NCBI GenBank assembly: GCA_026418275.1
Contig: JAOABQ010000049.1
Coordinates: 186,001-250,000, forward strand
From: Clostridia bacterium
GTDB lineage: Bacteria; Bacillota; Clostridia; Acetivibrionales; DSM-2933
Direction: 5' to 3'
Length of the DNA: 64,000 bases
Of the stretch, positions 7,734 through 35,785 are shown in pieces. The notes beneath the pieces are model-generated. The model saw only the letters and a program-made list of their open reading frames with translations, did not search any database and was not told where the DNA came from. The position numbers and the translations under genes are program-made. The stretch's first letter is position 1. Each line of letters opens with the position of its first letter.

Positions 7734-8990
7734 ATGGTTGTAAACAATACACGGCTGGAAAAAATTTTAAGGCATGCCTTTGATACTGTTCCCTTCTATA
7801 TGAAAATCAAAGAAACATCAGGTGGACAAGATATTCGATTTGAAGATCTTCCGCTTATCGGAAAGAAATTTATGATTGAAAATATGGACTTTTTTCTTTC
7901 CAATGCCTATAAAGATTATGATAGAACTGAAAATCAAAAAGAAATTGGGGATAAGCTTTTATATTTTGAATTTACTTCAGGTTCCAGCGGTTATCCTCTT
8001 CAGTGTTACAAGACGAAGGGGGAAAAAACAGAGTTCGGAGTAAGTCTATATAAAAAGCGTAAAGCAATTTTTAATGGTTTTACGAATGATAAGATGTTTT
8101 GCTTTATACATAACCATGAATTTGACCATAGCAGCTACAAAGATAGCCTCGGTAACCTTTCTGAAGAAAATATCGGCAAGATTTTAAACTATTTGAGGGA
8201 TGAGGCGAAACCTAAGGTACTGCATGGAAATACAATGCTTTTATTGTACTATGCCCGGTATATCAAGGATCATAACTTTGACTTGAAATCCTGGAAGATC
8301 GAATTCATTGAATCTGTTTCCGAGAGCATATCAAATGAACAAAAGGAATTTATAGGCGAGCAGTTTAAAACAAGGGTTTTTGATTGTTACGGTTGTTTGG
8401 AATGCTATAATGTGGCCTATGAATGTCCGGAAGGAGCCCTCCATTTAAATGAAAACGTAATCATCGAAATCATAGACCCCGATACATTAAAGCCGGTGAA
8501 TGAAAAAGGAAAAATAGGTGAAGTGGTATTAACATCTTTGGTAAACAAAGCCCAGCCCTTTATAAGATATAAAACCGGTGATATGGGATATATTGAAGGG
8601 ATTGATTGTTCTTGTGGCAATCCTAGGGATGTGATCTTCCTTACAGGAAAAAGGAAGATTGATTATCTTAAGCTGGTTTTCAAAACGACAGATGAAAAAC
8701 TTCATATTTGTGGATTCGATATCTTTATGACGGTTATGTACAGGCTGGTTAGAGAAGGGTATGACTGTGTAAGCTGGTATAACATTATTCAAACAGAGTT
8801 GGATGGTTTTGATGTTCTTTATACCAGGAAAAAGAATTTTTCAGATCAGTTTTTCGAACTCTTTAAAAAGTACACAGAAGAAGAGTTGAAGATGAGCGTA
8901 AAAATGAATTTTATTGAAAAAACAGAAGAAGAGGTTCTATTCATTAATAGAAAAAACCGCGTATTCAGGTCTAACATGCAAACAGATTAA
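7734..8990 (+). CDS. PaaK-like AMP-dependent synthetase (phenylacetate-CoA ligase family)
   Basis: This 418-residue protein belongs to the PaaK branch of adenylate-forming enzymes, which activate a carboxylic acid as acyl-AMP and pass it to a thiol. The P-loop-like motif TSGSSG is at 81-86 and the A8-type motif IRYKTGDMG is near 270. A Cys-rich stretch (CYGCLECYNVAYEC, near 205-220, then CSCG) resembles the metal-binding insert of some PaaK proteins. The ATG at 7734 was preferred because GTGGAGG at 7722-7728 is its ribosome site; an in-frame GTG at 7722 is part of that site. It is the first cluster gene, and I infer that it loads an acyl group on CoA or on a carrier protein. The substrate is unknown. 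Confidence 0.8.
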   Translation: MVVNNTRLEKILRHAFDTVPFYMKIKETSGGQDIRFEDLPLIGKKFMIENMDFFLSNAYKDYDRTENQKEIGDKLLYFEFTSGSSGYPLQCYKTKGEKTEFGVSLYKKRKAIFNGFTNDKMFCFIHNHEFDHSSYKDSLGNLSEENIGKILNYLRDEAKPKVLHGNTMLLLYYARYIKDHNFDLKSWKIEFIESVSESISNEQKEFIGEQFKTRVFDCYGCLECYNVAYECPEGALHLNENVIIEIIDPDTLKPVNEKGKIGEVVLTSLVNKAQPFIRYKTGDMGYIEGIDCSCGNPRDVIFLTGKRKIDYLKLVFKTTDEKLHICGFDIFMTVMYRLVREGYDCVSWYNIIQTELDGFDVLYTRKKNFSDQFFELFKKYTEEELKMSVKMNFIEKTEEEVLFINRKNRVFRSNMQTD

Positions 8991-9014
8991 TCAATTTATG
9001 AAAGGAGGAGTGAC

Positions 9015-9989
9015 ATGACAATCTTTAAAAATGTTGAGCTTTCGGAAAATACTGAGTTTAGGCTGGAGAGCCTTGAAGTCGGTTTGACGTCAAAGTGTAA
9101 TTTCAAGTGTGAGTATTGCTGTGCGTATATGAAGGATGACAGTGAGGTATTAAGAGGGGACCGGGTTATAGATATTATCAAGGAATTGAAATATTTAAAC
9201 AGAGTAAAACTTTCCGGAGGGGAAGTGCTCATGTACTTTGACGATTGTCTTAAGGTAGTGGATTTTTGTACGTCTAGAGAGATCCATTCTCAAATTAACT
9301 CCAACGGCAGTCTTTTAAATAAGGAAAAAATATATGAATTAAAAAACGCAGGATTGAAAACCTTGCACATTTCACTCAACTTTACAAATGCAAAAGACTT
9401 CTCCAGGTTTTATAAAGTAGATGAAACTGTATTTGACCGCATTATAGACAATATAAAAACCTCGGTTCAAAGCGGATTGGATACGGTTGTTGAGACCATT
9501 ATTTTTAGTGAGACGGAAAATAACATGAAAGAGGTATGCAACTTTGTATACGATTTGGGTGTGCGGAAAATGGAAATCCAGTACGGCGTTCCAACCATAC
9601 ACAGCGGTTGGAATAAGATCACTTTTGAGGACAAGCTGTCCGAGGTCATTGAGGGGATAATCAAAAATAAAAAAGATGATACCCAAATGTTCTTTAGTTG
9701 TATCGATATTACCCATTACCATGAATTCAATTCAAGGATCGATGAGTTAAATCAAAAAGGTGTATATTTTCCAAAGTGCATCGAAGGTAAAAAACAGTTA
9801 CATTTGCACAGCAATGGAGATGTCCTCATTTGCGAATTGGGGTATCCGGTGGTAATCGGAAATATATTTAGCGGGACATCTTTGGATGGAATATTTAAAA
9901 GTATGCCGGAGGAATTGATCCGCTTTTTAAACGACCACAACTGTCAAAAAAATTGTGTATATCAGAAGAAATCTGAAGTGACGGTATAA
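9015..9989 (+). CDS. radical SAM protein with SPASM-like C-terminus
   Basis: The 324-residue protein has the radical SAM cluster motif CNFKCEYC (Cys28, Cys32, Cys35) followed by KLSGGE, the SAM-binding GGE region. A C-terminal Cys set (FPKCIEG, then VLICELG, then HNCQKNC) suits a SPASM or twitch domain binding one or more extra Fe-S clusters. Such enzymes commonly modify peptides or carrier-bound substrates. GAAAGGAGG lies just upstream of the ATG, 24 bases after the previous gene. Substrate cannot be read from sequence. Confidence 0.88.
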   Translation: MTIFKNVELSENTEFRLESLEVGLTSKCNFKCEYCCAYMKDDSEVLRGDRVIDIIKELKYLNRVKLSGGEVLMYFDDCLKVVDFCTSREIHSQINSNGSLLNKEKIYELKNAGLKTLHISLNFTNAKDFSRFYKVDETVFDRIIDNIKTSVQSGLDTVVETIIFSETENNMKEVCNFVYDLGVRKMEIQYGVPTIHSGWNKITFEDKLSEVIEGIIKNKKDDTQMFFSCIDITHYHEFNSRIDELNQKGVYFPKCIEGKKQLHLHSNGDVLICELGYPVVIGNIFSGTSLDGIFKSMPEELIRFLNDHNCQKNCVYQKKSEVTV

Positions 9990-10112: not shown

Positions 10113-10970
10113 ATGGATACGAATATCGTTAATCAATATAATCTAGTAAAAATACCTTCAGGGACTTTTTTGATGGGAGATACTTTCGGTGACGGCTTCA
10201 AACAGGAACTGCCTGTTCACGAGGTTTATACAGACTCGTATTTCATTGGGAAGTACAACGTTACCGTTAAGGAATATTTTGATTTTATCCAAGATTCAGG
10301 GGATGAATTCCAGGAAATATGGTGTGATTTTATTGATCCTTGTTTTATTTTAAATGAGGGCGGAAAATACAAAATTTCAGAAGGTGCAGAGCATTTTCCC
10401 ATGGTTCAAGTGAGCTTTGTAGGTGCTGTGGCATACTGCAACTGGTGCTCCAAGAAAAACGGTCTTGAATCGGTCTATGATTTGGAAACACTGGAGGGAG
10501 ACCTAACTAAGAATGGTTTCAGGCTGCCTACTGAAGCACAGTGGGAGTATGCATGTGGAGGTCCTGAGGGTTTCAAATGCTTTTATGGTAATGAGTTTGA
10601 TGCTGAGCTCATTAACTTTAAAGGTTACTCCGGTAGTTACAAAGGCCGCCGGGCAAGTAATAAAAAAATCGGAGGGTTTGGGCTGGATGAGAATTCTCCG
10701 GTTCCGGTAGGAACGTTTCCTGCAAATGGCTTCGGGGTGCATGAAATGATTGGGAATGTCAACGAATGGTGTCATGACAAGTATGCAATATATAAAAAGG
10801 ATAGTGAAGTAAACCCATGGGGCGCAAGTGAAGGTACTTTTCGGGTTATCCGCGGGGGATGTTTTATTGATGGAAAGGAAAAAATGCGTAAATCCTACAG
10901 GCATGCCATACACCCCCATGCAAAATGTATGGTAGACGGGTTTAGGATTGCTTTGCCAAATCTATTCTAA
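10113..10970 (+). CDS. FGE/SUMF1-fold protein (formylglycine-generating enzyme family), copy 1
   Basis: The 285-residue protein has the whole FGE-sulfatase domain: IPSGTFLMGD at the start, GFRLPTEAQWEYAC in the middle, NVNEWCHDKY, and RVIRGGCF followed by DGFRIA at the end. In true FGE the segment after RGGSF carries two copper-binding cysteines; here that pattern is absent, with a single Cys in RGGCF. The DinB iron-site domain of EgtB is also missing. The fold is clear but the chemistry is open; oxidation of a carrier-bound group is one possibility. The next gene, 24 bases on, is a carrier protein, and the same FGE-carrier pair recurs at 14324-15369. Confidence 0.87.
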   Translation: MDTNIVNQYNLVKIPSGTFLMGDTFGDGFKQELPVHEVYTDSYFIGKYNVTVKEYFDFIQDSGDEFQEIWCDFIDPCFILNEGGKYKISEGAEHFPMVQVSFVGAVAYCNWCSKKNGLESVYDLETLEGDLTKNGFRLPTEAQWEYACGGPEGFKCFYGNEFDAELINFKGYSGSYKGRRASNKKIGGFGLDENSPVPVGTFPANGFGVHEMIGNVNEWCHDKYAIYKKDSEVNPWGASEGTFRVIRGGCFIDGKEKMRKSYRHAIHPHAKCMVDGFRIALPNLF

Positions 10971-10994
10971 CTATATTTTTGGAGGTGCTTATCA

Positions 10995-11249
10995 ATGAAA
11001 GAAAAAATTATTCTTGATATTACGGATTTTATCAAGAAAGAGATTATTAATAACAGCGAAACGGATATTGGGCCAGATGAAAATATTATTTCAAAGGGGT
11101 TAATTGATTCCATGGGAATTATCCGGCTTATGTCTTTCATTCAAGAAGCTTACAATATTAAGGAAATAAACAATAAAGACATGCTTTTGGATAATTTTCA
11201 GACAGTAGATAAAATTGCGGATTTGGTAAGCAAGTATATACAGAATTAG
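10995..11249 (+). CDS. acyl carrier protein 1
   Basis: This 84-residue stand-alone carrier protein has the phosphopantetheine site at Ser39 in KGLIDSMGII. The shape is typical: helix 1, a loop with DENII, the site, then helix 2 starting MSFIQEAYNI. TTGGAGG precedes the start. It follows the first FGE-fold gene and probably carries the substrate of the neighbouring tailoring enzymes. It differs from a housekeeping AcpP, which has DSLD in place of DSMG. Confidence 0.85.
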   Translation: MKEKIILDITDFIKKEIINNSETDIGPDENIISKGLIDSMGIIRLMSFIQEAYNIKEINNKDMLLDNFQTVDKIADLVSKYIQN

Positions 11250-11358: not shown

Positions 11359-11398
11359 TATCGGGTTAAGTAAAATTTAAGAGAAAAGGAAGATGATT

Positions 11399-12757
11399 AT
11401 GGCGAATCAAGTTGCTTTTACAGAAAAGCTTACAAATTTCTATAGATATCCATGTATTTGCGGTTTTCAAGATAAGGTCGAAAAACCGAAAGAATTTTTA
11501 GGCTATTTAAATACACCCAGTCCAAAAGACAGGGATACCATGATCTATATTCATATTCCCTTTTGCCGGAGTATGTGTATCTACTGTCCTTTCTACAAGG
11601 AACACCATAAAAACATCGATTATGAGACAAAAAGCAGGTTTGTGAATGCTTTGGTTAAAGAGTTGGAGATGTATTCCAAGGAACCCTATTTCAAAGATGT
11701 ACCCATCGTAAATGTAAACATGGGTGGGGGTACGCCCATGGTACTGGAAACCGAGCTCTTAATCAGGATCCTTGATGCAATTTATAAAAATTTCAATATG
11801 GAAAAGTGTGAGGTTATATCTATTGAGGGCGATCCTATTGCGCTTCAGGATGTGAATAAATTAAAGGCACTGAAGGAAATGGGGATGACAAGAACCTCCT
11901 TCGGTATTCAGACCTTTAATGAGCGTTTAAGGAAGAAACTGGGGGTTGAATCCTCTGTCCTTGATATATTCAAGGCATTGAATGCCCTAGAAAAAGCAGG
12001 GGTTGATGAATGGGGATGCGATATGCTTTACAACTGCCCGGATCAAAATGTAACTGAGATTAGGTATAATGTGGACCGGATCTGTGATCTGAAGCCTACC
12101 GTTGTGGATGTATACGACCTTAATATATCACCCAATACAAAGCTTCAAAAGCTTTTGGACACGGACTACTTTAAGTCAAAACCAAGCAATAAAAATGAGA
12201 TAGAAATGTTTGCCGCAATCATGGAAACCTTTGGTGAAAACGGATTTGACCATATCCGGAGTGTAAATTTCGAGCCTAAAGGTTATAAGCACAGCAAAAA
12301 GGGAATTCTTTATGCTTTTAGCGCAGACCTTCTGGCAATAGGCCCCTCTGCCAGAACATTCATGTACAGCGGCGGAATGAATTATAGAAACCACTGCTCA
12401 CTGGAGCGGTATATCGGAAGTCTGGAGGATGGCATTTATCCTGTGGAGGCTGGAAATATTGTTTCAAAGGAAGCCCTTGAAGAAAGGGATATAATCCTCT
12501 TCCCTTATTATATGAAGCTTAGAAAAGACGAAATCAATTACAACCGTTTTAAGGAAAAAATTGATGACATGATTATAAGCGGCTACATCAAAGACAATGG
12601 AGACAGCATTGAACTTACCGACTTAGGAAAGCTGTGGGCAGGGAATGTACAGTATTATTTCCACAGTGATTCTGAAAAGGAAAAAATGGCAAACAGCATA
12701 TTCAAGTGTCTATCGGAAAAGAAAAATTTCTTTAACCAGGACAATATAAACTGCTAA
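11399..12757 (+). CDS. HemN-like radical SAM protein
   Basis: The 452-residue protein has the HemN-type motif IPFCRSMCIYCPF (Cys56, Cys60, Cys63) with NMGGGTP as the SAM-binding region and a HemN C-terminal region. Relatives include coproporphyrinogen dehydrogenase, cyclopropanases and class C radical SAM methyltransferases. In a biosynthetic cluster a methylase or cyclase role is more likely than heme synthesis, but this is inference. ATG 11399 was chosen over ATG 11393 because GGAAG ends at 11392 and would be too close to the earlier codon. Confidence 0.83.
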   Translation: MANQVAFTEKLTNFYRYPCICGFQDKVEKPKEFLGYLNTPSPKDRDTMIYIHIPFCRSMCIYCPFYKEHHKNIDYETKSRFVNALVKELEMYSKEPYFKDVPIVNVNMGGGTPMVLETELLIRILDAIYKNFNMEKCEVISIEGDPIALQDVNKLKALKEMGMTRTSFGIQTFNERLRKKLGVESSVLDIFKALNALEKAGVDEWGCDMLYNCPDQNVTEIRYNVDRICDLKPTVVDVYDLNISPNTKLQKLLDTDYFKSKPSNKNEIEMFAAIMETFGENGFDHIRSVNFEPKGYKHSKKGILYAFSADLLAIGPSARTFMYSGGMNYRNHCSLERYIGSLEDGIYPVEAGNIVSKEALEERDIILFPYYMKLRKDEINYNRFKEKIDDMIISGYIKDNGDSIELTDLGKLWAGNVQYYFHSDSEKEKMANSIFKCLSEKKNFFNQDNINC

Positions 12758-12800
12758 TGTTTCCTAGAAGTAGTGGGACTAACTATAGGAGAAAACTTCC

Positions 12801-14294
12801 ATGATGGCAAAAAAGAATAAGATTCTCTTCATTGAACCGAGCGATTCATGGGTTACAAATAATAAAGCACTGATAAACTTTGAGCAGGTAATGATACCGA
12901 TTGGGTTGATGTACCTCAGTGCTTATATGAAAAAATATTTCAACAGACAAGTTGAGACAAAAATTCTAAGCACCATGACCGACTTCAACGGGAACGAGGA
13001 ATTTTCAAAGTTATTGGAATCATTTATGCCGGATATTGTGTGTATCCGAAGTGTGATTTTCTACACCGAAAAAGTGTTCCAGTTGGTTGATGTTATACGG
13101 GAGAAGAGCCCGGAATCTCTTATAATCCTCGGTGGACCCAATGTATCTTCTGATAATGCAGTTTTATTAAATAACCGTAAAATTGATATTTTCGTAGAGG
13201 GTGAAGGAGAAGAATCCTTAAAAGAGATTGTAAAAACATACATAGAACATGGAAAAACAATGCTTTTGGACTCTTTGGAGAGTCTAGGGGGAATCCTATT
13301 TTGGAAGAACGGCAAGGTGGTTGGGACACCGAAAAGGGCATGTCTCCGAAATTTGGACGAATTACCTTTTCCTGATTACCATGGGATTGACCTAGAAAAG
13401 TATACTTCTTTTTTAAATTACGGTTACAGCAGGAGAAAGATGGGGGTCCTCTTTACTTCCAGGGGATGCCCCTACCGTTGTACCTACTGTCATAATGTAT
13501 TCGGCAAAAGCTTTAGGGCCAGGAGTGCTGAGAATATATACGAGGAAGTTTCCTATTTGAATAGTGAGTTTGGGATATGCGATTTTTGCATTGTAGATGA
13601 CAATTTTACTTTTGACCGTAAACGGGTAGAAAAATTTACAGACATGATGATAACCAAGGGGCCCAAAGTGAATTTTTATTTTCCTAACGGCATCCGGGCG
13701 GATTCTTTAACAAAAGATTTGATGGACCGGCTTATAGCTTCAGGCGCCATATGGATGACATTTTCTTTGGAAACAGCATCAAAGAGGCTGCAAAAGCTCA
13801 TTAAAAAGAACATGGACATCGAAAAGCTTGAAGAAATGGTCCACTATGCCTGTGAAAAAAACGTCATAACGAATCTATGTCTTATGGTGGGTTTTCCTAC
13901 CGAAACGGTGGAAGAGGCGGAGGAATCCTTGAAATATTTTGCAGGCTTTAAAAAAGTAGTCCTTCCTTATTATTTTGCACTTAAGTATTATCCCGGAACA
14001 GAAATTTTTAAGGACGCAGGAAACTACGGGATCATGATTAATAAGGAAACCTACGAGGAAGCTTACCATCATGCCTCCTTTCAGGAGACGCCCCTCATCA
14101 AAAGGAGAGACTTTGAGCGGCTAAATCACTGGTATTTAAGAAATATATTCTTAAACCGTGAAAGGCTTAACAATTCGGTTGAGATTTTAGCAAAACATTT
14201 TAGTGTGGATGAAATCAAAGATATGTTTACCTTGTTCTTCAGAAGAAGAGTAAAGGATATTGATAAAGATGTTTTAAACTATATCATGTCATGA
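12801..14294 (+). CDS. B12-binding radical SAM protein 1
   Basis: This 497-residue protein has an N-terminal cobalamin-binding Rossmann-like domain (about 1-150; ILGGPN near 110 and VEGEGE near 133) and a radical SAM domain with CPYRCTYC at Cys223, Cys227 and Cys230. The DxHxxG cobalamin-ligand motif is not visible, as in many class B members. Such enzymes methylate unactivated carbons or rearrange and contract rings. It is a clear paralog of the protein at 16453-18009; both share MPIGLMYLS-like and NLDELPFPDY segments. AGGAG at 12787 decides the start. Confidence 0.9.
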   Translation: MMAKKNKILFIEPSDSWVTNNKALINFEQVMIPIGLMYLSAYMKKYFNRQVETKILSTMTDFNGNEEFSKLLESFMPDIVCIRSVIFYTEKVFQLVDVIREKSPESLIILGGPNVSSDNAVLLNNRKIDIFVEGEGEESLKEIVKTYIEHGKTMLLDSLESLGGILFWKNGKVVGTPKRACLRNLDELPFPDYHGIDLEKYTSFLNYGYSRRKMGVLFTSRGCPYRCTYCHNVFGKSFRARSAENIYEEVSYLNSEFGICDFCIVDDNFTFDRKRVEKFTDMMITKGPKVNFYFPNGIRADSLTKDLMDRLIASGAIWMTFSLETASKRLQKLIKKNMDIEKLEEMVHYACEKNVITNLCLMVGFPTETVEEAEESLKYFAGFKKVVLPYYFALKYYPGTEIFKDAGNYGIMINKETYEEAYHHASFQETPLIKRRDFERLNHWYLRNIFLNRERLNNSVEILAKHFSVDEIKDMFTLFFRRRVKDIDKDVLNYIMS

Positions 14295-14323: not shown

Positions 14324-15064
14324 ATGACAGATTGGATTGAGATTCCCGAATTGGTTCGATTGGAAGAGGATGATTTTATTATGGGGGATATTTGGGGAGA
14401 CGGGGATTTGGATGAGCTTCCCACCTACCAAGTCCATATGAAGCCCTTTTTCATCAGTAAATATACAATAACGAATCGTGCATTTCAATGTTTCCTCAAT
14501 GACATTAAGTCCGAGTTGGACCAGGATGGAAATAAAATCATTGATTTGGACAAGGCGGATTCTCTCATATTAAAGCGGAACGGGGAATTCCGGTGCAAGG
14601 AAGGCTACGAGGAGTATCCGGTGACCAGAATTTCCTGGTATGGTGCACGTGCTTACTGCCAATGGCTTGGAAATAAAGCCGGTAAAAAGTTTAAACTGCC
14701 TACCGAATGTCAGTGGCAATATGCCAGCATGGGGCCAAAGCGGCTAAAGTGGGCACTGGGAGACATATTCGACAGGTCGGAATATATCGTAAACTGTAAT
14801 GAACCGGAAAGTGCAAAGAGCGGGAAGGAATCGGACACCGGACTTTTTAATGTAACAGGAAATGTGTTTGAGTGGTGTGAAGATGAATACGCTTTCAAAC
14901 TTAACTGTAAAGAGGATGATAAAATCCTAAAAAAGCACAGGGTGATTAAGGGTGGGGCCTTCATTTTAGGTGAATCTCATAATCTTAGAAACGGAAAGCG
15001 GTTTTCCTGTTATGAAGCCAGCTGCCTCAATTGTATAGGATTTAGAGTTGTATCGGAAATTTAG
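14324..15064 (+). CDS. FGE/SUMF1-fold protein, copy 2
   Basis: The 246-residue protein repeats the FGE-sulfatase pattern: DDFIMGDIWGDGDLDELP at the start, KLPTECQWQYAS, NVFEWCEDEY, and RVIKGGAF with IGFRVV at the end. The copper cysteines of true FGE are missing from the RGGSF segment; the cysteines present (SCYEASCLNC) are placed differently. It is shorter than copy 1. The closest feature to use is context: it lies 20 bases before a carrier protein, exactly as copy 1 does. A duplicated carrier-acting cassette is likely. Confidence 0.85.
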   Translation: MTDWIEIPELVRLEEDDFIMGDIWGDGDLDELPTYQVHMKPFFISKYTITNRAFQCFLNDIKSELDQDGNKIIDLDKADSLILKRNGEFRCKEGYEEYPVTRISWYGARAYCQWLGNKAGKKFKLPTECQWQYASMGPKRLKWALGDIFDRSEYIVNCNEPESAKSGKESDTGLFNVTGNVFEWCEDEYAFKLNCKEDDKILKKHRVIKGGAFILGESHNLRNGKRFSCYEASCLNCIGFRVVSEI

Positions 15065-15084: not shown

Positions 15085-15369
15085 ATGAACAACAGGGATC
15101 ATGAATTATATAACAGCATCAGAAAAACCATACAGGAGTATATTGAAGAGAAATTTTTGGAGAACAATCCTGTAGAACTTACATATGAGTATCACTTGTT
15201 GGAGAATGGAATTATTGATTCCCTCTCCATGATGAATTTAATTTTGTTTATTGAAGACAAATACAAGTTGGATTTTTATAAAATCGAAGCCAACCGGGAT
15301 TCTTTCCAAAACATCAATACCATTGCCGATCTAATTTCCAACAACATGAAAGAGGAGATAAAAATGTGA
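15085..15369 (+). CDS. acyl carrier protein 2
   Basis: This 94-residue carrier protein has its attachment serine at Ser46 in NGIIDSLSMM, followed by ILFIEDKYKLDF, the usual second helix. GGAGG at 15071-15075 is 9 bases before the ATG. The stop codon overlaps the GTG start of the next gene by 4 bases (GTGA), so it is translationally coupled to the KAS III-like enzyme, its likely partner. Confidence 0.87.
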   Translation: MNNRDHELYNSIRKTIQEYIEEKFLENNPVELTYEYHLLENGIIDSLSMMNLILFIEDKYKLDFYKIEANRDSFQNINTIADLISNNMKEEIKM

Positions 15370-20661: not shown

Positions 20662-20907
20662 ATGAATGAGAATTACGAAAAAATTGTAAACCTTATCAGA
20701 AGTATATCGGTATTTCACGATAAGGAATTGGAAATTGACAGAGATACAAACCTTATGGAAGATTTGGGGTTTGATTCCATACGATATATTCAGCTCATTG
20801 CGGATTTGGAGAGTGAATTCGGTTTCGAAGCCAGTGAAGAGGATTTGCAAATAGAGAATCTTCAGACAGTCGGAGATTTTGTTTTGCTGGTGGAATCTAA
20901 AAAATAA
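20662..20907 (+). CDS. carrier protein 3, likely acceptor of the amino acid ligase
   Basis: This 81-residue carrier protein has its phosphopantetheine serine at Ser39 in DLGFDSIRYIQL, followed by ADLESEFGFEASEEDL. It resembles the small carrier proteins that are encoded next to amino acid:carrier protein ligases. The tight pairing with that gene suggests it holds an aminoacyl thioester in the pathway. Confidence 0.87.
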   Translation: MNENYEKIVNLIRSISVFHDKELEIDRDTNLMEDLGFDSIRYIQLIADLESEFGFEASEEDLQIENLQTVGDFVLLVESKK

Positions 20908-22418: not shown

Positions 22419-22664
22419 CTATATACAACTAAGGAAAATCTATACCATTATGACTTATGTTTTACCTCAAAAACTTGGGATGACAGAGGAGCCAGTGGAA
22501 GGCTTTTAATGCGTTGTATATGGAATTCGATAAGTATGAGCCGTTTGGAGAATAATGAGGCGAACACTTTAACGACAATACTATGGAACGGTGTCTGGAT
22601 TTATCGTAATTTCTATTATAAAACTGTATATCATTTGAAGAAAAATCGGAAAGGTGTGAGCTTT

Positions 22665-23984: not shown

Positions 23985-24009
23985 AATTTTATTGAAGGGG
24001 TATCTTACA

Positions 24010-26722: not shown

Positions 26723-26735
26723 GGTGAGACAAACG

Positions 26736-27677: not shown

Positions 27678-29137
27678 TTATTGACTTACCTATTATTGTG
27701 TGTGGAAAAGTGATCCGGGGCGATGGGAGAGAAAAGATTCTTATCAAAACTGAAACTGGGATTGAAGTTAGGCTGCCGGCCCTTAATGAAGAAGATGTGG
27801 ATAATATAATCCGGAGTAGGCTAAATACGGGTCTTCATACGACTCATTTTGATGATATAACTATCTTCTTTAATAAACTTTCCCATTTTTGGCTAAGTAA
27901 AGAATGTCCATTGAGGGATGAAGCGGCAAGATACAGTGCCATGCTAACCGGATATCCTGAAGAAATTGTTCTTAGAGATTATCTCTTGTTTTTATACCTA
28001 TTTAAAGAGCGGGCGGAAATGTATGACCAATTGGAAGCTGAACTTGGAAACAGATGGTATATTGATGAATGGGTACCTTCTCAAACCTGTCTTGTACATG
28101 CAGTACCAAGGGGATTGGTCACAAACATTTTAGTCGGTAACATTCCTGTTGCATCCACATTTGGTGTCTACAGAAGTTTGATTGTTAAAAACAACACTTT
28201 ATGTAAATTGCCCAAAAGAGATCCTATAGGTGCACTTTATTTTGCATTATCATTTCTTGAAATCGATCCCGAACATCCTCTAACAAAAAGTTTGTCAGTA
28301 GCATATTGGGAGCGGGAGTCATGGCAGGAGGAAAGACTTTTGGGCGAGTCGGATGCAGTTTGCGTCTGGGGAGGAGAAACTGCCATCAATGAGATTAAGA
28401 AAAAGGTAAAGATGGGAACAAAAGTATTGGAGTACGGTCCCAAGAGAAGCTTGTCATTAGTCGATTTAACCACTATGGATCCGACAGATAATTTAAATGA
28501 TATAGCCCTAAGAATCGGACATGATTTTAGTGTTTATAATCAGGAAGCTTGCTTTACTTCGCAGGAGTTATACCTTGTTGCAGATAATGATACTTTTGAA
28601 AAATTTTTAGAACATTTAACTGAAGCTATGGAGCACTACCTTTCGGTATATAAAAAAGGACAGCTTATGAGTGACAGTAAAGCACATGTTCTAATGACAA
28701 GAGAAGAATATCTGTTAGAGGGGGACAGGGTAATTTCAACGAAGGACCATGGATTCACAATTATTGTAACGAAGGATGATAGACGTGTTCGTTCACATCC
28801 TTTAAACAGAACGGTCATTATCCACCGGATTGATAGATTGGAAGAGGCTGTAAAACACATAACGAAATATACCCAAACTGTAACATTGTATCCATGGAAA
28901 GCACAAGAACGTTTGAGGGACATGATCGCGATTAGGGGAGCGGACAGAATTGTTGCTGTTGGAATGGCTAATTTCCCCCGGACAGGGTTCCCCCATGATG
29001 GCATTTGGACATTGAACGAGCTGGTTCGGTGGGTAAATATAGAGAGGGATTTAGATTTTAAAGGAAAGTATTACTCAAATACAAAAGAAGAACTTATTGA
29101 TGTTTTGTTCCGGACGAAAAAGATTAACTTGTTTTAG
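27674..29137 (+). CDS. luxC: LuxC-like acyl-CoA/acyl-protein reductase
   Basis: The 487-residue protein matches LuxC, the NADPH-dependent reductase that turns a bound acyl thioester into an aldehyde. The nucleophile is in YNQEACFTSQEL (Cys293). VGNIPVASTFG and LCKLPKRDP are further family landmarks. The TTG at 27674 follows AGGGGG and overlaps the luxD stop as TTGA; an in-frame ATG at 27656 inside luxD has no ribosome site. With luxE and luxD it forms a complete complex, but no luciferase genes are nearby. Confidence 0.87.
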   Translation: MIIDLPIIVCGKVIRGDGREKILIKTETGIEVRLPALNEEDVDNIIRSRLNTGLHTTHFDDITIFFNKLSHFWLSKECPLRDEAARYSAMLTGYPEEIVLRDYLLFLYLFKERAEMYDQLEAELGNRWYIDEWVPSQTCLVHAVPRGLVTNILVGNIPVASTFGVYRSLIVKNNTLCKLPKRDPIGALYFALSFLEIDPEHPLTKSLSVAYWERESWQEERLLGESDAVCVWGGETAINEIKKKVKMGTKVLEYGPKRSLSLVDLTTMDPTDNLNDIALRIGHDFSVYNQEACFTSQELYLVADNDTFEKFLEHLTEAMEHYLSVYKKGQLMSDSKAHVLMTREEYLLEGDRVISTKDHGFTIIVTKDDRRVRSHPLNRTVIIHRIDRLEEAVKHITKYTQTVTLYPWKAQERLRDMIAIRGADRIVAVGMANFPRTGFPHDGIWTLNELVRWVNIERDLDFKGKYYSNTKEELIDVLFRTKKINLF

Positions 29138-29441
29138 TGAGGGAAATGCATAACTGCCAATTGTTTTATATGTGTGATTTATTATTAAACCCCCGTCATA
29201 AACAAACAGGCAAAGGAAGGCAGAGAAGGGATTTGAGCTTATATTCGGATGGATATATAGGTGAATTACTTTAACAGAAGCATGAGAAAGGATTTTTAAG
29301 AATATAATTGACTGAAAGCACATTGAATACTCATTTGCGTTATAAAGTAGTATTAACCGGTCTCAAAAAGCGATATCAAAGCCATTTGGTTTGCAAAATA
29401 TTGCTATATTTAACGCAAATGAGTTTATGAGAGGTTTTGAT
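29138..29441 (+). other. 304-base gap between luxC and the NRPS gene
   Basis: No gene or clear terminator is visible. TTGACT at 29308 lacks a good -10 partner at 16-18 bases, so I do not call a promoter. The NRPS ribosome site GAGAGG is at 29429-29434. Confidence 0.6.
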
Positions 29442-32400
29442 ATGATTCAAGAGGAGCAATTGGTCAAAAATCAGGAGGAACAAGTAGAATTAAGAAGGGA
29501 AAGGGATTATTGGCTCCAAAAATTGAGCGGTAATTTTACTAAAAGTACTTTTCCCCATTCATATAAAGCAGATGAATCCAGTAAAAAATCAATGAAGAAG
29601 CTGGAGTTTGATATGGAAGGGGAGGTTTACTCACGTCTTAACCAATTGGCTAAAGGGTCGGATCATAGTTTATACATTTTGTTTGTGACAGAAGTGGTCT
29701 TGCTTTTGACCAGGTATACCTCTCAAAATGATATTATAGTGGGAATTCCTGTGGCAAAGGATATCGAAGAGGAACGGCCGGAGAATATCCTGCTTCCTTT
29801 AAGAAATCAGGCTGATGAAAAGGGATCTTTTAAAGATCTTTTAATCAATGTAAAACAATCCATTGTTGAAGCATTGAAAAATCAGAATTATTCCATGAAA
29901 AAACTGCTTTACCAGCTTAATATGGTGTATGACGAGGATTCTTTTCCTCTCTTTGACGTGGTAATCCTTTTTGAAAATATACATGACAAAAAAAGTTTAG
30001 CATCCATAAAACCCAATTTTGTAATCTCTTTGGTTAAAAATGACCACCGGATCCGGGTGACATTGGAATATAACGAAGCCTTTTATGCCCCTTACTTCAT
30101 TGGAAAAATAAAAACCCACTTTTTAAAGTTAACTGAGGAAACGCTTAACAATCTCAACATGCCTCTTGAAGAAATTCAAATGCTGTCTAAAGAAGAACTG
30201 CATGAAATCCTTTTTGGTTTTAACGATACAAAGACGGATTACCCAAAACATGAAACCATAGCGTCGCTGTTTAAACAACAGGCAGAAAAAACGCCGGGCC
30301 ACACGGCTGTAGTATTTGAAGGAGAGACGATTACCTATGCCCAGTTGGATAAAGAGTCGGACCGGCTTGCGGGCTACCTGTTCCATGAAAAAAAGATCAA
30401 GCCCGATGACCGGGTAGGAATACTCATGGACCGGTCGTTGAGCCGGATTGTATCCATCCTGGGAGTTTTAAAATCCGGAGGCTGCTATGTACCCATGGAC
30501 CCTGCACTTACGGAAGAGAGGTTGAGAGTTATCATTGAAGATGCGGGTATCGGTGTCCTGGTGTCCGAAAGGAAATATATCCGGCTTTTAAACAGGCTTC
30601 AATGGGAGTGCAAAGCCTTGCATACCTTTGTTTGTATGGACAGCAGCGATATTGACTCAGAGGACGAAATGGAAAAAAGCGAACTGATGAATGAGAAAGT
30701 GTGGCATTATGTTGCGGAGAAGGCGGAAGACGATGTAGATGGAGGCGGTTGGGTCAGCAGTTATACAGGAGAGCCTTTCAGCAAGAGGGAAGTTGATGAA
30801 TGTGCGGAAAATGCGGTAATAAAGATTTCCCATATTTTAAGAAAAGACATGAAGGTATTGGAAATCGGCTGTGCTACAGGTGTAAGCATGTTTAAGATCG
30901 CTCCTAAAGTAGGCTTGTATTACGGCACCGACCTTTCATCGCTGATTATAGAGCGGAACAAAGAAAAAATCGAAAAGGAAGGCTATAAGAATATTCGGCT
31001 CCAATGTTTGCAGGCCCACGAAATGGATCGGGTGGAAGAAAGGAATTTTGACCTTGTTTTTATGAATAGTGTTGTTCAATGCTTCCACGGTCATAATTAC
31101 CTGAGGAAGTTTATCCGAGAAGCAGTGGATTTACTGGGGGAGAATGGGCACATCTTTATAGGAGATGTCATGGACCAGGACTTAAAGGAAGAACTGCTCC
31201 GTGAATTGAAGCAGTTTAAAATAAACAATAGGGGAAAAGGCTATAAAACAAAAACCGACTTTAGTACTGAATTGTTTTTATCCAGAGAGTTTTTTGAAGA
31301 TTTAAAGGTCGATATACCCGGGTTAATAAACCTGGAATTTTCCAAGAAGATTTATTCAGTAGAAAACGAACTGACAAAGTTTAGGTATGATGTCCTTATT
31401 ACGGTGGATAAGAAAAGCGATGCTAAGAGGTCCTGCTTAAGCAAAAACAAATACCGGAACGATTTAAGAGCCATTAAAAACAGTAATATAGAGGAAATCA
31501 ACCCAAAAACCCAACCCGGCAATCTGGCCTATGTAATTTATACGTCCGGTTCTACCGGAAAACCCAAAGGGACACTCATCAAGCAGTTTAATGTAGTCCG
31601 GATTGTAAAGAATACCAATTATATTGATATTTCAAGCCAGGACAGGATTCTTCAATGGTCCAACTATGCATTTGACGGATCTGTCTTTGATATCTTGGGT
31701 GCCTTGTTAAATGGTGCTGGATTGGTTATTCCCAAAAGGGAAGATACTTTCATTTCCCACCGGCTGGCGGATATTCTGGAAAGAGAAAGGATTTCGGTTG
31801 TCTTCATGACCACTGCATTTTTTAACACACTGGTAGATTTAAATATTGAATGCTTAAGAAACCTTAGAAAGATCTTGTTTGGAGGAGAGAGGGTTTCCTT
31901 TGAACATGCAGGAAAAGCTTATCAATATCTAGGGAGCGGCAAGCTTGTACATATGTACGGTCCTACGGAAACCACAGTCTTTTCAACCTTTTACAACATC
32001 AACGGGACGGATGAAAATCTGGGGACGGTCCCCATCGGTAAGCCGGTTTCAAACACAACGGTCTATATTTTGGACCATCACCTAAACATCGTACCGGTAG
32101 GCGTAAGCGGAGAAATCTATATTGGCGGAGATGGTGTGGGAGCCGGATATCTTAATAACGCCGTGCTTACCCGAGAGAAGTTTGTAAAAAACCCTCATAT
32201 AGAGGGAGAAATCCTATATAAAACAGGAGATTATGCCCGTTGGCTGCCGGATGGAAATGTTGAGTTTTTAGCGAGAAAAGATGATCAGGTTAAGATTCGA
32301 GGGTTTAGAATAGAACTTGGTGAAATCAAAAACCAGATATTAAAATTTGAAGGAATCACCGATGCGGTTCTAGTGGTAATAGAGGAGAAGGATAAAGCTA

Positions 32401-34142
32401 TCTGTGCTTATTTTACAGCTGGTGCACAAGTTGACCTTGTGGATTTGAAATCATATTTATCCATGAAGCTTCCGGAATATATGGTACCTGCATTTCTTGT
32501 TCAACTGGATAAAATTCCTCTGAATGCAAATGGAAAAATCAATAAGGATGCCCTGCCGCTGCCTGAAAATACACTTAGGAAGAATATCATAAAACCAAGG
32601 GATGGGGTGGAAAAAAATCTTGCTCACATTTGGGCGGAGGTTTTAAATCTTAAACTGGAGAATATCAGCATAGACGATAACTTTTTTGATTATGGTGGAC
32701 ATTCGCTAAAGGCGTCGATTTTTATTTCAAAGATTTATGGAAGCTTGGGCATGAAGATTCCTTTAGATATCATATTCAAAATGCCTACTATTATGGAGCT
32801 TTCCGGTTATGTAAAAAAGGTAAAGGGAGAAGCTTTTATACCTATCGGGAAAGCTCCGAGAAAAGACTATTACGTTCTGTCCCCCGAGCAAACAAGGTAC
32901 TATTCCCTTCAAAAGACCAATCCGGTGAATATGAGCAATAATGTTCCCTGGGCATGGACTATGGAAGGAAAGTTTGATATTGAAAGATTGAACGATGCCA
33001 TCAACCTTTTGATTGAAAGGCATGAGAGCCTGAGGACCTATTTTAAAGAAGTCAATGGTGAGCCTGTACAAATTGTCCTGGATCAAGTTGATTTTAGTCT
33101 GGATTTCATGGAAATGGATGAAGCTGAGGCCATGGAACAGATTAGGAATTCCATAAAGCCCTTTGATCTAAGCAAGGCTCCTATTTTGAGGGGAATGGTT
33201 ATCAAGGTCGGACAGGAAAAGCACATTCTATTTATGGATATGCACCATATTATTTGTGACGGGACATCCATCGGAATTATGTTTAAAGAAATCAATAAGG
33301 CATATAATAGAGAGGAGCTTCCGGAAGTAAAGGTTCAATATCAGGACTTTGCCCAGTGGTTGAGAGGGCTCAATGATTCCGATGAAATGAAAAAACAAAT
33401 GGATTATTGGCACAACCAGTTTAAAACAATTCCTGTTTTAAATATGCCTACAGATTTTGAAAGACCTAAGGTTCAGAGTTTCGATGGAGATACCATCAGC
33501 AGGGAACTGGAAGACCATCTTTACATAAAGCTTAAAGATATTGCAAAGGAGACCCGGTCTACACTCTACATTGTGATGTTGGCCGCATTCAATATACTTC
33601 TTCATAAATATACGGGGGATGAAGACATTATTGTAGGTTCTCCCATATCAGGCAGAAGGCATCCGGATTTTAATAACACCATTGGGCTTCTCATTAATAT
33701 GATTGGCATGAGGAATTATCCTAGTGGGGAGAAAACCTATGCCCAATTTCTTGAGGAGGTAAAAAAGACTGCCTTTCACGCCTATGAAAACCAGGACTAC
33801 AAGTATGAAGAATTAATAAAAGCGGTTTTGAATAAAAAGGATCCTTCGAGAAATCCGCTGTTTGATGTGGTATTTGTCTTGCAGAATATGGAGATCGGAG
33901 GAATTGATCTTCAGGGACTTAAGTCAACCTCTCATAAAATAAAGCATGACATAGCAAGAATTGATATATTTTTCCAAGTTTATGAGATCGATGATTGCGT
34001 GAAGCTTTCCCTGGAGTATGCAACTGCTTTATTTAAGAGGGACACCGCCCGAAAAATGCTGGACGATTTTAGCGGCATATTAAAACAGGTTGTTGAAAAT
34101 ATGTATATAAAAATAGAGGATATCACATTGGTGCAATCATAG
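29442..34142 (+). CDS. NRPS: partial C - A (interrupted by methyltransferase) - PCP - C
   Basis: The 1566-residue protein starts with only the second half of a condensation domain (about 1-260; no HHxxxDG). The adenylation domain starts near 270 but is split after the A2 motif KSGGCYVPMDP by a methyltransferase of about 250 residues (VLEIGCATGVSMF near 472), then resumes with A3 YVIYTSGSTGKPKG and runs to NANGKINKD. A PCP follows (GGHSLK, Ser1088), then a complete condensation domain with HHIICDG near 1268. There is no thioesterase. Hand-derived specificity residues read roughly D-G-F-F-L-G-M-V-F-K, near published Ile codes. ATG 29442 was chosen for GAGAGG 7 bases upstream. Confidence 0.93.
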   Translation: MIQEEQLVKNQEEQVELRRERDYWLQKLSGNFTKSTFPHSYKADESSKKSMKKLEFDMEGEVYSRLNQLAKGSDHSLYILFVTEVVLLLTRYTSQNDIIVGIPVAKDIEEERPENILLPLRNQADEKGSFKDLLINVKQSIVEALKNQNYSMKKLLYQLNMVYDEDSFPLFDVVILFENIHDKKSLASIKPNFVISLVKNDHRIRVTLEYNEAFYAPYFIGKIKTHFLKLTEETLNNLNMPLEEIQMLSKEELHEILFGFNDTKTDYPKHETIASLFKQQAEKTPGHTAVVFEGETITYAQLDKESDRLAGYLFHEKKIKPDDRVGILMDRSLSRIVSILGVLKSGGCYVPMDPALTEERLRVIIEDAGIGVLVSERKYIRLLNRLQWECKALHTFVCMDSSDIDSEDEMEKSELMNEKVWHYVAEKAEDDVDGGGWVSSYTGEPFSKREVDECAENAVIKISHILRKDMKVLEIGCATGVSMFKIAPKVGLYYGTDLSSLIIERNKEKIEKEGYKNIRLQCLQAHEMDRVEERNFDLVFMNSVVQCFHGHNYLRKFIREAVDLLGENGHIFIGDVMDQDLKEELLRELKQFKINNRGKGYKTKTDFSTELFLSREFFEDLKVDIPGLINLEFSKKIYSVENELTKFRYDVLITVDKKSDAKRSCLSKNKYRNDLRAIKNSNIEEINPKTQPGNLAYVIYTSGSTGKPKGTLIKQFNVVRIVKNTNYIDISSQDRILQWSNYAFDGSVFDILGALLNGAGLVIPKREDTFISHRLADILERERISVVFMTTAFFNTLVDLNIECLRNLRKILFGGERVSFEHAGKAYQYLGSGKLVHMYGPTETTVFSTFYNINGTDENLGTVPIGKPVSNTTVYILDHHLNIVPVGVSGEIYIGGDGVGAGYLNNAVLTREKFVKNPHIEGEILYKTGDYARWLPDGNVEFLARKDDQVKIRGFRIELGEIKNQILKFEGITDAVLVVIEEKDKAICAYFTAGAQVDLVDLKSYLSMKLPEYMVPAFLVQLDKIPLNANGKINKDALPLPENTLRKNIIKPRDGVEKNLAHIWAEVLNLKLENISIDDNFFDYGGHSLKASIFISKIYGSLGMKIPLDIIFKMPTIMELSGYVKKVKGEAFIPIGKAPRKDYYVLSPEQTRYYSLQKTNPVNMSNNVPWAWTMEGKFDIERLNDAINLLIERHESLRTYFKEVNGEPVQIVLDQVDFSLDFMEMDEAEAMEQIRNSIKPFDLSKAPILRGMVIKVGQEKHILFMDMHHIICDGTSIGIMFKEINKAYNREELPEVKVQYQDFAQWLRGLNDSDEMKKQMDYWHNQFKTIPVLNMPTDFERPKVQSFDGDTISRELEDHLYIKLKDIAKETRSTLYIVMLAAFNILLHKYTGDEDIIVGSPISGRRHPDFNNTIGLLINMIGMRNYPSGEKTYAQFLEEVKKTAFHAYENQDYKYEELIKAVLNKKDPSRNPLFDVVFVLQNMEIGGIDLQGLKSTSHKIKHDIARIDIFFQVYEIDDCVKLSLEYATALFKRDTARKMLDDFSGILKQVVENMYIKIEDITLVQS

Positions 34143-34297
34143 CTATGGATGCTCCAAAATAAACAAGTGAATTCCGGTGTAAAATCATTAAAAGCAGTTT
34201 GGAAGCCGGAACTCACTTTTGGATGAGGTTTGTTGGTTTACATTCATTACCGTGATGGCATAATCAGGGTTTATGTTTTGGAATGGAGGGGAGATGG

Positions 34298-35785
34298 GTG
34301 CAGGAAGTATATTGGCCTACAGGCAAATGGCAGTATTCCGAGCCGGAGGAACAGGGGTTGGATGCAGAAATACTGGAGAAAATGTTTCAATATATCCATG
34401 ATACAAACATAAATCTTCATAGTTTGCTCATTGTAAAGAATGGATATATGGTGGTGGAAAAGTTTTTTGATCCCTATACCAAGGAGGACAAACATAATAT
34501 ATTTTCCATCACAAAAGGTGTCATATCTTCCTTGGTAGGGATTGCACTCCATGAAGGCTATTTTGAAACCCTTTCCCAAAAAGTAAAGGGTTTTTTTCCA
34601 GATGTGGCAATAGATCGTTCCAGCAGTTTGGAGAACATTACGGTGAAAAATCTTTTAACCATGACAACCGGAATCAAAGACGGACAAGCAAGCAAGCCGG
34701 GGGTGTTTATAAGAAACTGGATTAAACACTTTTTTTCCTTGCCCGTAGAAGAAAAAAAGAGGGGGGCATTTTGCTATAACAATGAAAATGCACATATGCT
34801 TTCTATCCTGCTGCAGAGAGTAACCGGTGAAAATACTTTGGAGTTTGCCAAAAGGAAACTCTTCAAGCCCTTAGAAATCGAAGATGTAGAATGGGAATTG
34901 GGGCCGGAACGGGCAAATGCAGGAGGTTGGGGGATGAAAATGCTGCCCCATGATGTTGCAAAACTTGGTTTGCTCTATTTAAGAAAGGGAAGCTGGAAGC
35001 ATACACAAATACTTCCCGGGAAATGGATTGAGGAAGCATGGACTCCCCACATCAAGCTGGATTTTTACGAGCTCAGGCCTTCCATCAAAGGCTATGGATA
35101 TATGTGGTGGCTGAACGCGTTTTCCGGGTATAGGGTGAATGGGTTTGGTGGGCAGTACCTTTGGGTTTTTCCGGAGCATGATATGGTGATGGTTGTAAAT
35201 GGGGGCCTTACCTATGGGGAACAGGCGCAGCCGGTAAAAATGGCTGAAAAATATCTGATTCCCTCGGTAAAGCCAAAAAGCTTGAGCTCTTCTTATAGTC
35301 AGAAGCTGAAGGCTTTTAAGCATGCGCAATCGGTTACACTTGGGAAAAAGAGTGTATTTCCTTATTTCCCAGAGAAATGGAGCAGTTTTTCCGGGAAAAA
35401 ATTTTTAATGGAACTAAACAAGTACCAGTTTAAATCCTTTTGCTTTACATTTAACAATCTCTTCGATTGTACCTTGGAAATATGTCAGGGGAAAGGCCCC
35501 TTGCAGACCTTGAAAATGCAGTTTAACGGTACCTTTGCCAGAAGTACTGTTTTTAGGCTGGGAACAGCGGTTCAGGGCGCCGGAGAGTTTGAAGTCGGGA
35601 TTCGAGGCCAATGGCGGAGTGATAATGAACTGTTTTTGGAATGGAAAAATATTGGTGAGCCCTTTGAGGAAGAGTATGTATTTACTTTTTATGATGAAAC
35701 TCTTAAGGTTGAAATAAAGGAAAAGGCAGCCATCGACCCTGAGAATGAGAATTCTGTTTTCGTTTTATGGGGGAGAGTGGAATAA
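34298..35785 (+). CDS. beta-lactamase-fold serine hydrolase (class C / NylB-like)
   Basis: The protein of about 495 residues has the SxxK motif SITK (Ser70, Lys73), a YNNEN segment in the place of YxN, and WGMKMLPHDVAKLGLLYL, all typical of serine hydrolases related to beta-lactamase class C. The last 130 residues form a beta-rich tail. No signal peptide is seen, so a cytoplasmic role such as acylase, transesterase or release enzyme is likely. As the last cluster gene, and with no thioesterase in the NRPS, it is a candidate release or maturation enzyme. GTG 34298 follows GGAGGGGAG; ATG 34283 is possible. Confidence 0.78.
   Translation: MQEVYWPTGKWQYSEPEEQGLDAEILEKMFQYIHDTNINLHSLLIVKNGYMVVEKFFDPYTKEDKHNIFSITKGVISSLVGIALHEGYFETLSQKVKGFFPDVAIDRSSSLENITVKNLLTMTTGIKDGQASKPGVFIRNWIKHFFSLPVEEKKRGAFCYNNENAHMLSILLQRVTGENTLEFAKRKLFKPLEIEDVEWELGPERANAGGWGMKMLPHDVAKLGLLYLRKGSWKHTQILPGKWIEEAWTPHIKLDFYELRPSIKGYGYMWWLNAFSGYRVNGFGGQYLWVFPEHDMVMVVNGGLTYGEQAQPVKMAEKYLIPSVKPKSLSSSYSQKLKAFKHAQSVTLGKKSVFPYFPEKWSSFSGKKFLMELNKYQFKSFCFTFNNLFDCTLEICQGKGPLQTLKMQFNGTFARSTVFRLGTAVQGAGEFEVGIRGQWRSDNELFLEWKNIGEPFEEEYVFTFYDETLKVEIKEKAAIDPENENSVFVLWGRVE

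Follow-up and report, generated by a model that had tools for sequence, protein, structure and literature searches.

A 28-kb block of 21 genes in a Clostridia bacterium may join a portable carrier-protein cassette to local NRPS and LuxCDE-type genes

We analyze a 28-kb block of 21 co-directional genes (A-U; positions 7722-35785, 95.6% coding) on a contig of a Clostridia bacterium, lying in a 64,000-nucleotide stretch that we call the window. Counterparts of 12 genes out of the 14 in A-N, 41-60% identical, lie on two contigs of a single Blastocatellia MAG, and as this half recurs in the same gene order in another phylum, it appears to be a real, movable and undescribed building-block pathway for a natural product. 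By a slight preference, drawn from sequence, we read the block as two functional halves, in which A-N would be a portable building-block cassette and O-U the local users of its product. A more ambitious reading, which we hold tentatively and at less than even confidence, is that A-N forms an “aminoacyl-carrier radical factory” that is so far undescribed, complete in itself and moves horizontally; its loader would charge free carriers, its five radical SAM enzymes would rebuild the tethered amino acid, its KAS III-fold Cys-Gln-His enzyme would move or join it, and the finished unit would plug into the NRPS and release system of the host. Equally tentative are the outlets that this reading would assign to it, namely LuxCDE aldehyde release here and P450-type genes with another NRPS in the second phylum. 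If true, a transferable module making heavily modified amino acids outside NRPS would be common to two phyla, and loader L, carriers D and H and enzymes F and J would form a test set for radical reactions of amino acids bound to carriers.

The block is flanked by polC and rimP. Pfam and NCBIfam scans of its ORFs give five radical SAM proteins, three free carriers, an aaRS-like loader, LuxCDE and one NRPS, together with a PaaK-like ligase (7722), a glycosidase-like protein (20961), a homocysteine methyltransferase (22509), an AMP-dependent ligase (23992) and a serine hydrolase (34283). The families named in the original prediction are borne out by the ORF lists and these scans, and open-licence PMC papers yielded no described cluster of the same gene content, in keeping with its claim of novelty. 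Its start at 7734 is an in-frame ATG; the same ORF also has a GTG at 7722. All 21 frames are open and the checked motifs are intact. The features are as follows.

7334..7362, + strand: promoter-like site upstream of A (11/12; consensus match only)
7722..8990, + strand: A, PaaK-like acyl-activating ligase, core (TSGSSG and TGD motifs; 60% to MAG orthologue)
9015..9989, + strand: B, radical SAM/SPASM protein, core (Pfam 74.5 bits; CX3CX2C; 48% to MAG orthologue)
10113..10970, + strand: C, FGE-fold protein 1, without copper cysteines (Pfam 174.6 bits; alignment)
10995..11249, + strand: D, free carrier 1, core (Pfam 19.8 bits; DS motif; 49% to MAG orthologue)
11393..12757, + strand: E, HemN-type radical SAM protein, core (60% to MAG orthologue)
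12801..14294, + strand: F, B12-binding radical SAM protein 1, core (56% to MAG orthologue; tree)
14324..15064, + strand: G, FGE-fold protein 2, core, without copper cysteines (Pfam 122.8 bits; 52% to MAG; alignment)
15085..15369, + strand: H, free carrier 2, core (DS motif; NCBIfam carrier models under cut-off; 41% to MAG)
15366..16367, + strand: I, KAS III-like enzyme, Cys132-Gln259-His290, core (44% to MAG orthologue)
16453..18009, + strand: J, B12-binding radical SAM protein 2, core (53% to MAG orthologue; tree)
18011..19378, + strand: K, B12-binding radical SAM protein 3, core (55% to MAG orthologue)
19434..20618, + strand: L, aaRS-like relative of amino acid:carrier ligases, core (47% to MAG orthologue)
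20662..20907, + strand: M, free carrier 3 (Pfam 43 bits; DS motif)
20961..22370, + strand: N, glycosidase-like protein, core (50% to MAG; weak NCBIfam phosphorylase match)
22509..23984, + strand: O, homocysteine S-methyltransferase (Pfam 217.4 bits; cysteine motifs)
23992..25524, + strand: P, AMP-dependent acyl ligase (Pfam 232.6 bits)
25601..26722, + strand: Q, LuxE-type acyl-protein synthetase (Pfam 221.1 bits; motif)
26724..27677, + strand: R, LuxD-type acyl transferase (Pfam 76.5 bits; motif)
27656..29137, + strand: S, LuxC-type acyl reductase (Pfam 243.2 bits; motif)
29391..34142, + strand: T, NRPS with split A domain, PCP and C-terminal condensation domain (domain scan, motifs)
34283..35785, + strand: U, beta-lactamase-fold serine hydrolase (Pfam 97.1 bits; SxxK at 75, YNN at 165)
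35801..35817, + strand: terminator-like hairpin after U (consensus match only)
35866..35894, + strand: promoter-like site before rimP (11/12, extended; consensus match only)

The single strand, the coding density, the short gaps within A-U (-22 to 253 bp) and the collinearity of 12 genes with a set in another phylum place the block beyond chance. The region around the promoter-like site upstream of A holds 2 such sites versus 4.2 in shuffles. No transporter or regulator is annotated among A-U, and an Rfam scan of the window at gathering thresholds gave no match and so no known RNA control. A tRNA-linked insertion was rejected, as the window is without any tRNA, and so was a plasmid origin, as the plasmid matches of L, I and A (10, 5 and 5 rows listed, 22.6-29.5% identity) all fall below 60%. 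For N, no Pfam family and no PDB relative were found, and its single-sequence fold model was set aside (pLDDT 30); A scored 95.4 bits against the NCBIfam DVU1553 AMP-ligase family, under the cut-off.

The Blastocatellia counterpart (MAG nzgw74) lies on two unjoined contigs, JAHFUG010000295.1 and C482. One carries counterparts of A, B, E, F, I, J, K and N in the order and strand of the window; the other carries those of D, G, H and L, again in the order of the window. Neither C as a separate gene nor M was seen on the two contigs, and besides the source and this MAG we saw the cassette in no other genome. For C482, the contig checked in this way, mis-binning was rejected on its MetH matches. 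Of 58 kin, 47 had a match to this MetH at E<=1e-100; for its N-terminal part the six genomes listed first after the MAG itself reached 59-66% identity and four others 55-59%, and the remaining listed first-half or full-length matches 36-45%, where listing order stands for nearness by assumption, since the search itself gives no kinship.

None of the seven genes O-U has an orthologue-level match on these contigs, and LuxC has no match in the MAG, although an empty result there is weak; in place of LuxCDE and NRPS T, the MAG has genes of P450 type and a different NRPS, whose N-terminal part holds an AMP-ligase and a carrier. The original prediction had treated the whole gene set as one pathway unit. 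In that form this is not supported, as the half with the aaRS, carrier, radical SAM, KAS III-like, FGE2, PaaK and glycosidase-like genes exists in another phylum without LuxCDE and without this NRPS. One could still argue for a single indivisible pathway, in which all 21 genes serve a single product and the Blastocatellia set represents a related pathway with some parts exchanged. The strand, density and gaps given above would fit it, and no terminator-like site was reported on the + strand in the scanned stretch 28900-35785; however, the contrast between 12/14 of A-N and 0/7 of O-U, along with the missing LuxC, weighs against it, and we regard it as rather unlikely. We give very little credence to the idea that the block is an insertion into a housekeeping operon that is silent or decaying and makes no product. 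This idea would agree with the rarity of the loader, present in 7 of 294 relatives including the own genome (the others only 27-31% identical), and with polC and rimP lying close to each other in 2 of the 8 relatives looked at, but it sits poorly with 21 open frames, intact motifs and catalytic residues that recur in a distant orthologue.

The reactions, the order of steps and the product that we now describe for A-U are ones that we infer. Under the two-halves reading, L would activate an amino acid and then load it onto free carrier D or H, perhaps M, while A would activate or reactivate an acyl group. Like the amino acid:[carrier protein] ligases (Bll0957; PDB 3mey and 4h2s), L has a carrier gene alongside and a class II aaRS catalytic core, which both phmmer and Foldseek match to the two PDB entries, and its C210, E238 and C357, invariant in 39 sequences, align with those of the glycine:carrier-protein ligase (phmmer E 4.6e-10); we take these residues to be zinc ligands. 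Unlike these ligases, L has an extra N-terminal domain (~90 residues, folded in the model) and scores far under the NCBIfam amino acid:ACP ligase cut-off (99.9 versus 357 bits); its Pfam score is likewise below threshold (21.3 versus 29.3 bits). An alignment-based loader scan took 82 relatives from 88 stretches, of which 80 were kept; a search by peptide patterns of the loader itself found nothing. All three carriers have a DS(M/L/I) motif and match NCBIfam carrier models below cut-off; with Pfam PP-binding, M passes, D falls just under (19.8 versus 20.8 bits) and H has no match.

The confident structure model of L (pLDDT 89.7) has as its best Foldseek match a methanogen-type SerRS (E 3.5e-24), which, with the N-terminal domain, would suit an enzyme that charges tRNA or another acceptor, leaving the carriers to the acyl ligases only. 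We consider this very unlikely, as the core is close to the carrier-bound ligase 4h2s (TM 0.86 by target length) and carrier genes flank the loader in both genomes (M 43 bp after L here, H before L in the MAG).

On the two-halves reading, the radical SAM enzymes would alter the residue on its carrier: F and J, which are paralogues, would most likely C-methylate or otherwise modify its side chain, B, E and K would add further radical steps, and O would recycle methionine for the SAM-consuming steps. All five radical SAM proteins (starting at 9015, 11393, 12801, 16453 and 18011) have CX3CX2C, and three of them, F, J and K, have a B12-binding domain, which places them among the B12-rSAM enzymes. 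Searching 294 relatives with F and J gave four non-own genomes at E<=1e-40, all with the match within an NRPS. These units, embedded in adenylation domains (G030, G004, G054, G031; L035-L038), are the nearest relatives of F and J in that set and their sister group in the tree (support 95/93 for F/J together with these units); they are fused, with the rSAM part ahead of the B12 part. The stretches fetched for the four loci gave no match to the loader or to a free carrier. Excerpts of PMC11355689 describe methylation domains inserted in A domains as active only after the residue sits on the T domain. A cluster of Anaerobacterium chartisolvens (G029; L012/L049) has a similar layout, in which an NRPS module adjoins three B12-rSAM genes, a carrier gene and an aaRS-like ligase. 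Its aaRS is 26-31% identical to L, its rSAMs group with neither the F/J nor the K clade, and its 20-kb stretch gave no KAS III-like, FGE-like or Lux match.

Peptides or free acids are frequent substrates of B12-rSAM enzymes, and the block has several acyl-activating enzymes (A, L, P, Q). Both points would be compatible with A and L working on separate substrates and with radical SAM enzymes that modify the finished NRPS product rather than a carrier-bound amino acid. In the other phylum, however, the radical SAM genes again accompany the loader and the carriers although the NRPS there is a different one, and F and J are sister to A-domain-embedded units; we judge this alternative unlikely.

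The labels “KAS III” and “FGE”, as used in the original prediction, stand for folds and not for enzymes, because the class-defining catalytic residues are replaced. Protein I has the KAS III fold and its nucleophilic cysteine (Cys132, conserved; 22 PDB sequences at E<=1e-3), with Gln259 and His290 in place of the catalytic His and Asn, which puts it outside KAS III (FabH) proper. The Cys-Gln-His set is identical in both phyla, and an altered site conserved in two phyla sets these enzymes apart as a subgroup. FabH condensation by I was dropped on these residues; I would probably move the residue between carriers or acylate it. Both C and G have the FGE fold. At the positions of the copper cysteines, a pair that we take to be copper-binding in formylglycine-generating enzymes, C has Asp and Met, and G and its MAG orthologue have no Cys (alignments). 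A copper-oxidase reading of C and G was dropped on the same grounds, and G may be a carrier-associated accessory or catalyst.

For the O-U half, T would activate a second amino acid, probably branched and hydrophobic, and methylate it, and its C-terminal condensation domain would couple it to the residue held on a free carrier. LuxD, LuxE and LuxC would then release the acyl chain and convert it by reduction into an aldehyde, so that release here is probably as an aldehyde. The analysis supports the original view that the pathway runs on carrier proteins, includes an NRPS and probably ends in reductive release; a peptide aldehyde, if made, would be a candidate protease inhibitor. LuxE, LuxD and LuxC (25601-29137) are above Pfam cut-offs and, like LuxCDE of luminous bacteria, comprise the same three subunits with their motifs, which are presumably active-site motifs. 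They differ from the luminous-bacteria proteins in falling below the NCBIfam equivalog cut-offs (268.6/550, 80.3/420 and 297.1/750 bits), and a plain fatty acid is an unlikely substrate.

T has an interrupted A domain, with A2 at 360, a methyltransferase at 484-605, A3 at 717, later A motifs and a PCP. Its single HHxxxDG (HHIICDG at 1285) lies in the C-terminal condensation domain, so the first condensation-like stretch is without an active motif; Pfam found no thioesterase or reductase domain in T. Compared with the Ile reference code, the binding pocket is presumably Ile-like; it was read by eye, with code positions from excerpts of PMC11253843. According to excerpts of PMC11355689, the interrupted A domains of TioN and MarQ share the methyltransferase position between A2 and A3 with T. 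The pocket of T differs in that it reads as Ile-like and not as one for Cys. By analogy, the methyltransferase of T would be an S-methylase, which misfits the pocket as we read it. Some Clostridia NRPSs carry a similar rSAM-B12 unit inside the adenylation domain itself.

The 21 genes A-U all lie on the + strand at 7722-35785; neighbouring genes are separated by -22 to 253 bp, and 95.6% of the block is coding. The genome measures 5.80 Mb on 115 contigs. The original prediction saw here a single hybrid pathway matching no characterised cluster. That observation is confirmed as real and beyond chance, and neither a characterised cluster with this set nor a description of it was found in open-licence PMC papers, including the portions available of PMC9259500, PMC11253843, PMC11355689 and PMC10204066. 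The interpretation holds in part: the carrier/NRPS hybrid is real and rare, but it is better described in two parts, as 12/14 of genes A-N versus 0/7 of O-U have orthologues on contigs of a Blastocatellia MAG. The most plausible reading of A-U pairs a mobile cassette for building blocks (A-N) with a half that handles assembly and release locally (O-U); all chemistry that we assign to either part we infer.

Pfam and NCBIfam scans of A-U bore out the named families. All five radical SAM proteins carry CX3CX2C, and a DS(M/L/I) motif occurs in each of the three free carriers; carrier 1 (D) scored slightly under the Pfam cut-off and carrier 2 (H) had no Pfam match. The PaaK-like ligase A and aaRS-like loader L were also under Pfam cut-offs, their identity coming from NCBIfam and PDB relatives. 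The NRPS, T, has a single HHxxxDG, located in its C-terminal condensation domain, and its adenylation domain is interrupted as predicted, with a methyltransferase between A2 (at 360) and A3 (at 717). Other labels held in part. The KAS III-like enzyme I, aligned to FabH, keeps Cys132, but the FabH His and Asn are replaced by Gln259 and His290, all three residues being identical in the MAG orthologue. The FGE fold of C and G was confirmed, but neither has the copper cysteines in alignment: at what we take to be those positions of FGE, C has Asp and Met, and G and its MAG orthologue have no Cys.

A loader 47% identical to L was located on contig L039 (JAHFUG010000295.1; 9,882 bp) of the MAG titled Blastocatellia bacterium nzgw74. 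The order there is carrier 1, FGE2, carrier 2 and loader, then P450s (one by Pfam, preceded by a second P450-like frame read by eye), followed by an ORF resembling an ATPase and by an NRPS that combines AMP-ligase, carrier and condensation domains. A KAS III-like gene 44% identical to I lies on contig C482, which carries A, B, E, F, I, J, K and N in the same order and strand as the window. Judging from the orthologues on these two contigs, the Clostridia genome has 12 of the 14 cassette genes in common with a MAG that bears the label Acidobacteriota.

Identity of cassette genes to their MAG orthologues
A, PaaK-like ligase: 60%
B, radical SAM/SPASM protein: 48%
D, carrier 1: 49%
E, HemN-type radical SAM protein: 60%
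F, B12-radical SAM protein 1: 56%
G, FGE-fold protein 2 (FGE2): 52%
H, carrier 2: 41%
I, KAS III-like enzyme: 44%
J, B12-radical SAM protein 2: 53%
K, B12-radical SAM protein 3: 55%
L, aaRS-like loader: 47%
N, glycosidase-like protein: 50%

C and carrier 3 (M) were not found as separate genes on L039 or C482, C being 33% identical to the sole FGE gene there. For O-U, these contigs hold no orthologue-level match to any of the seven genes: the match for the homocysteine methyltransferase O is a 1,205-aa methionine synthase (26%), and the AMP-dependent ligase P and T match generic domains. LuxC had no match anywhere in the MAG, an empty answer that carries little weight in such a search. Mis-binning of C482 seems disfavoured, because the methionine synthase adjoining the cassette most resembles those from the genomes at the head of the list of the MAG's kin; this check covered C482.

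N was matched at E<=1e-3 in 20/247 genomes of an Acidobacteriota sample, orthologue-like only in nzgw74 (50%, full length; other long matches 27-33%). K at E<=1e-40 was found in 2/127 kin of the MAG, namely the MAG itself (55%) and one at 29-31%, and LuxC at E<=1e-30 in 3/197 genomes, own genome counted.

L is a relative of the amino acid:carrier ligase family rather than a member, because it has an additional N-terminal domain and, at 99.9 bits, falls far short of the NCBIfam cut-off of 357. In alignment its C210, E238 and C357 line up with the glycine:carrier-protein ligase, and they do not vary across 39 sequences. The best match of its confident structure model (pLDDT 89.7) by E-value is a methanogen-type SerRS; against the carrier-bound glycine ligase, TM is 0.86 by target length. 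With its own genome counted, L was matched in 7/294 relatives at E<=1e-3, with 27-31% identity outside its own genome, and in 2/398 phylum genomes at E<=1e-30. Scanning genome contigs with one pattern from alignment A1, which can miss relatives, gave 82 relatives from 88 stretches; 80 were kept, one 47% identical to L (best segment) and the other 79 at 23-35%.

Because an NRPS-like match (1e-20) lies near 44 of these 80 loaders (L039-L118; flanks <=10 kb), many in Actinomycetota, the association of aaRS-like ligases with NRPSs is wide. A carrier was near 18/80, a B12-radical SAM relative near 4/80 and an FGE-fold protein near one, on L039; LuxC, LuxD, LuxE and N had no match within these flanks. 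Elsewhere, an Acetivibrio-type locus (L010 8683-14081) has, in adjoining positions, two HemN-type radical SAM genes (E 1e-91 to 1e-93 against window gene E), a carrier and two aaRS-like ligases. A further locus (L013 1987-10379, - strand) places an aaRS-like ligase and carrier next to genes for a PLP decarboxylase, ATP-grasp enzyme, BtrH-like transferase and ABC transporter, and is putatively another aminoacyl-carrier pathway.

With the best five candidates per genome scored, J was matched at E<=1e-40 in 5/294 genomes; one is its own, and in the other four the matching segment is part of an NRPS.

NRPSs with a radical SAM plus B12-binding unit between A2 and A3
L035, 10830-17258
L036, 8876-15325
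L037, 8005-14415
L038, 3-3572, - strand

Pfam scans of L035, L037 and L038 place a radical SAM domain and then a B12-binding domain inside the A domain; all four have A3 after the insert, and in L036, L037 and L038 a strict A2 match comes before it. No description of A domains so interrupted was found in a search of open-licence PMC papers. Three of the four also have ~400 or more extra residues between motifs A8 and A10, which in L037 show a weak resemblance to QueC. A tree was built from 23 radical SAM domains after 10 duplicate or window copies had been removed. In it, window and MAG copies pair for F (support 100/100) and J (99/98), F and J group together (96/95) and then with the NRPS-embedded units (95/93), and K is separate. 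The substrates of F and J are probably aminoacyl groups attached to a carrier, because the two are sister to these units and because methylation domains inserted in A domains, in the part of PMC11355689 available, act on no free substrate and are active after the residue has been attached to the T domain. C-methylation, we infer, would be their likeliest reaction.

The T pocket code, DGFFLGMVFK, was read by eye and looks near to what we take to be the Ile code. Pocket positions follow the available part of PMC11253843. TioN and MarQ have methyltransferases at the same A2-A3 site as T, but these are S-methylases (PMC11355689, in part), and S-methylation misfits the Ile-like pocket. Anaerobacterium chartisolvens (G029) has a LuxD-LuxC-LuxE set (L142 10856-14552). 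Its contig also holds three B12-radical SAM relatives (L144) but no match to T or L, which raises the possibility that LuxCDE is linked to such pathways in its own right. Motifs are present in the window's LuxE, LuxD and LuxC, in roles that we presume.

Upstream of the block are genes with domains of rseP, ispG and polC, and downstream of the block are genes with domains of rimP, nusA, an L7Ae-type ribosomal protein and infB, gene names that we assigned to the matched domains. Consensus matches near its ends are:

7334-7362, promoter-like site
35801-35817, terminator-like hairpin, 3' of the serine hydrolase gene U
35866-35894, promoter-like site, 5' of rimP

The region of the first holds 2 promoter-like sites; shuffles average 4.2. 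Rfam families and tRNAs were not found anywhere in the 64-kb window. All eight relatives queried have rimP. In two (G029, G030) polC lies <=1.5 kb upstream; for the other six, rimP stretches of ~20 kb (five relatives) or 10 kb (one) include polC in G002 and G056 but not in the remaining four. The polC-rimP junction thus varies among these relatives, and given this spacing A-U may be an insertion there.

Between the promoter-like site and rimP, a perfect-looking hairpin lies at 35931-35955, and the 86 nt around it fold better than 197/200 shuffles. Farther on, G+C falls from ~40% to ~31% (about 50000-64000) after a multicopper-oxidase-like gene at 47569-49434.
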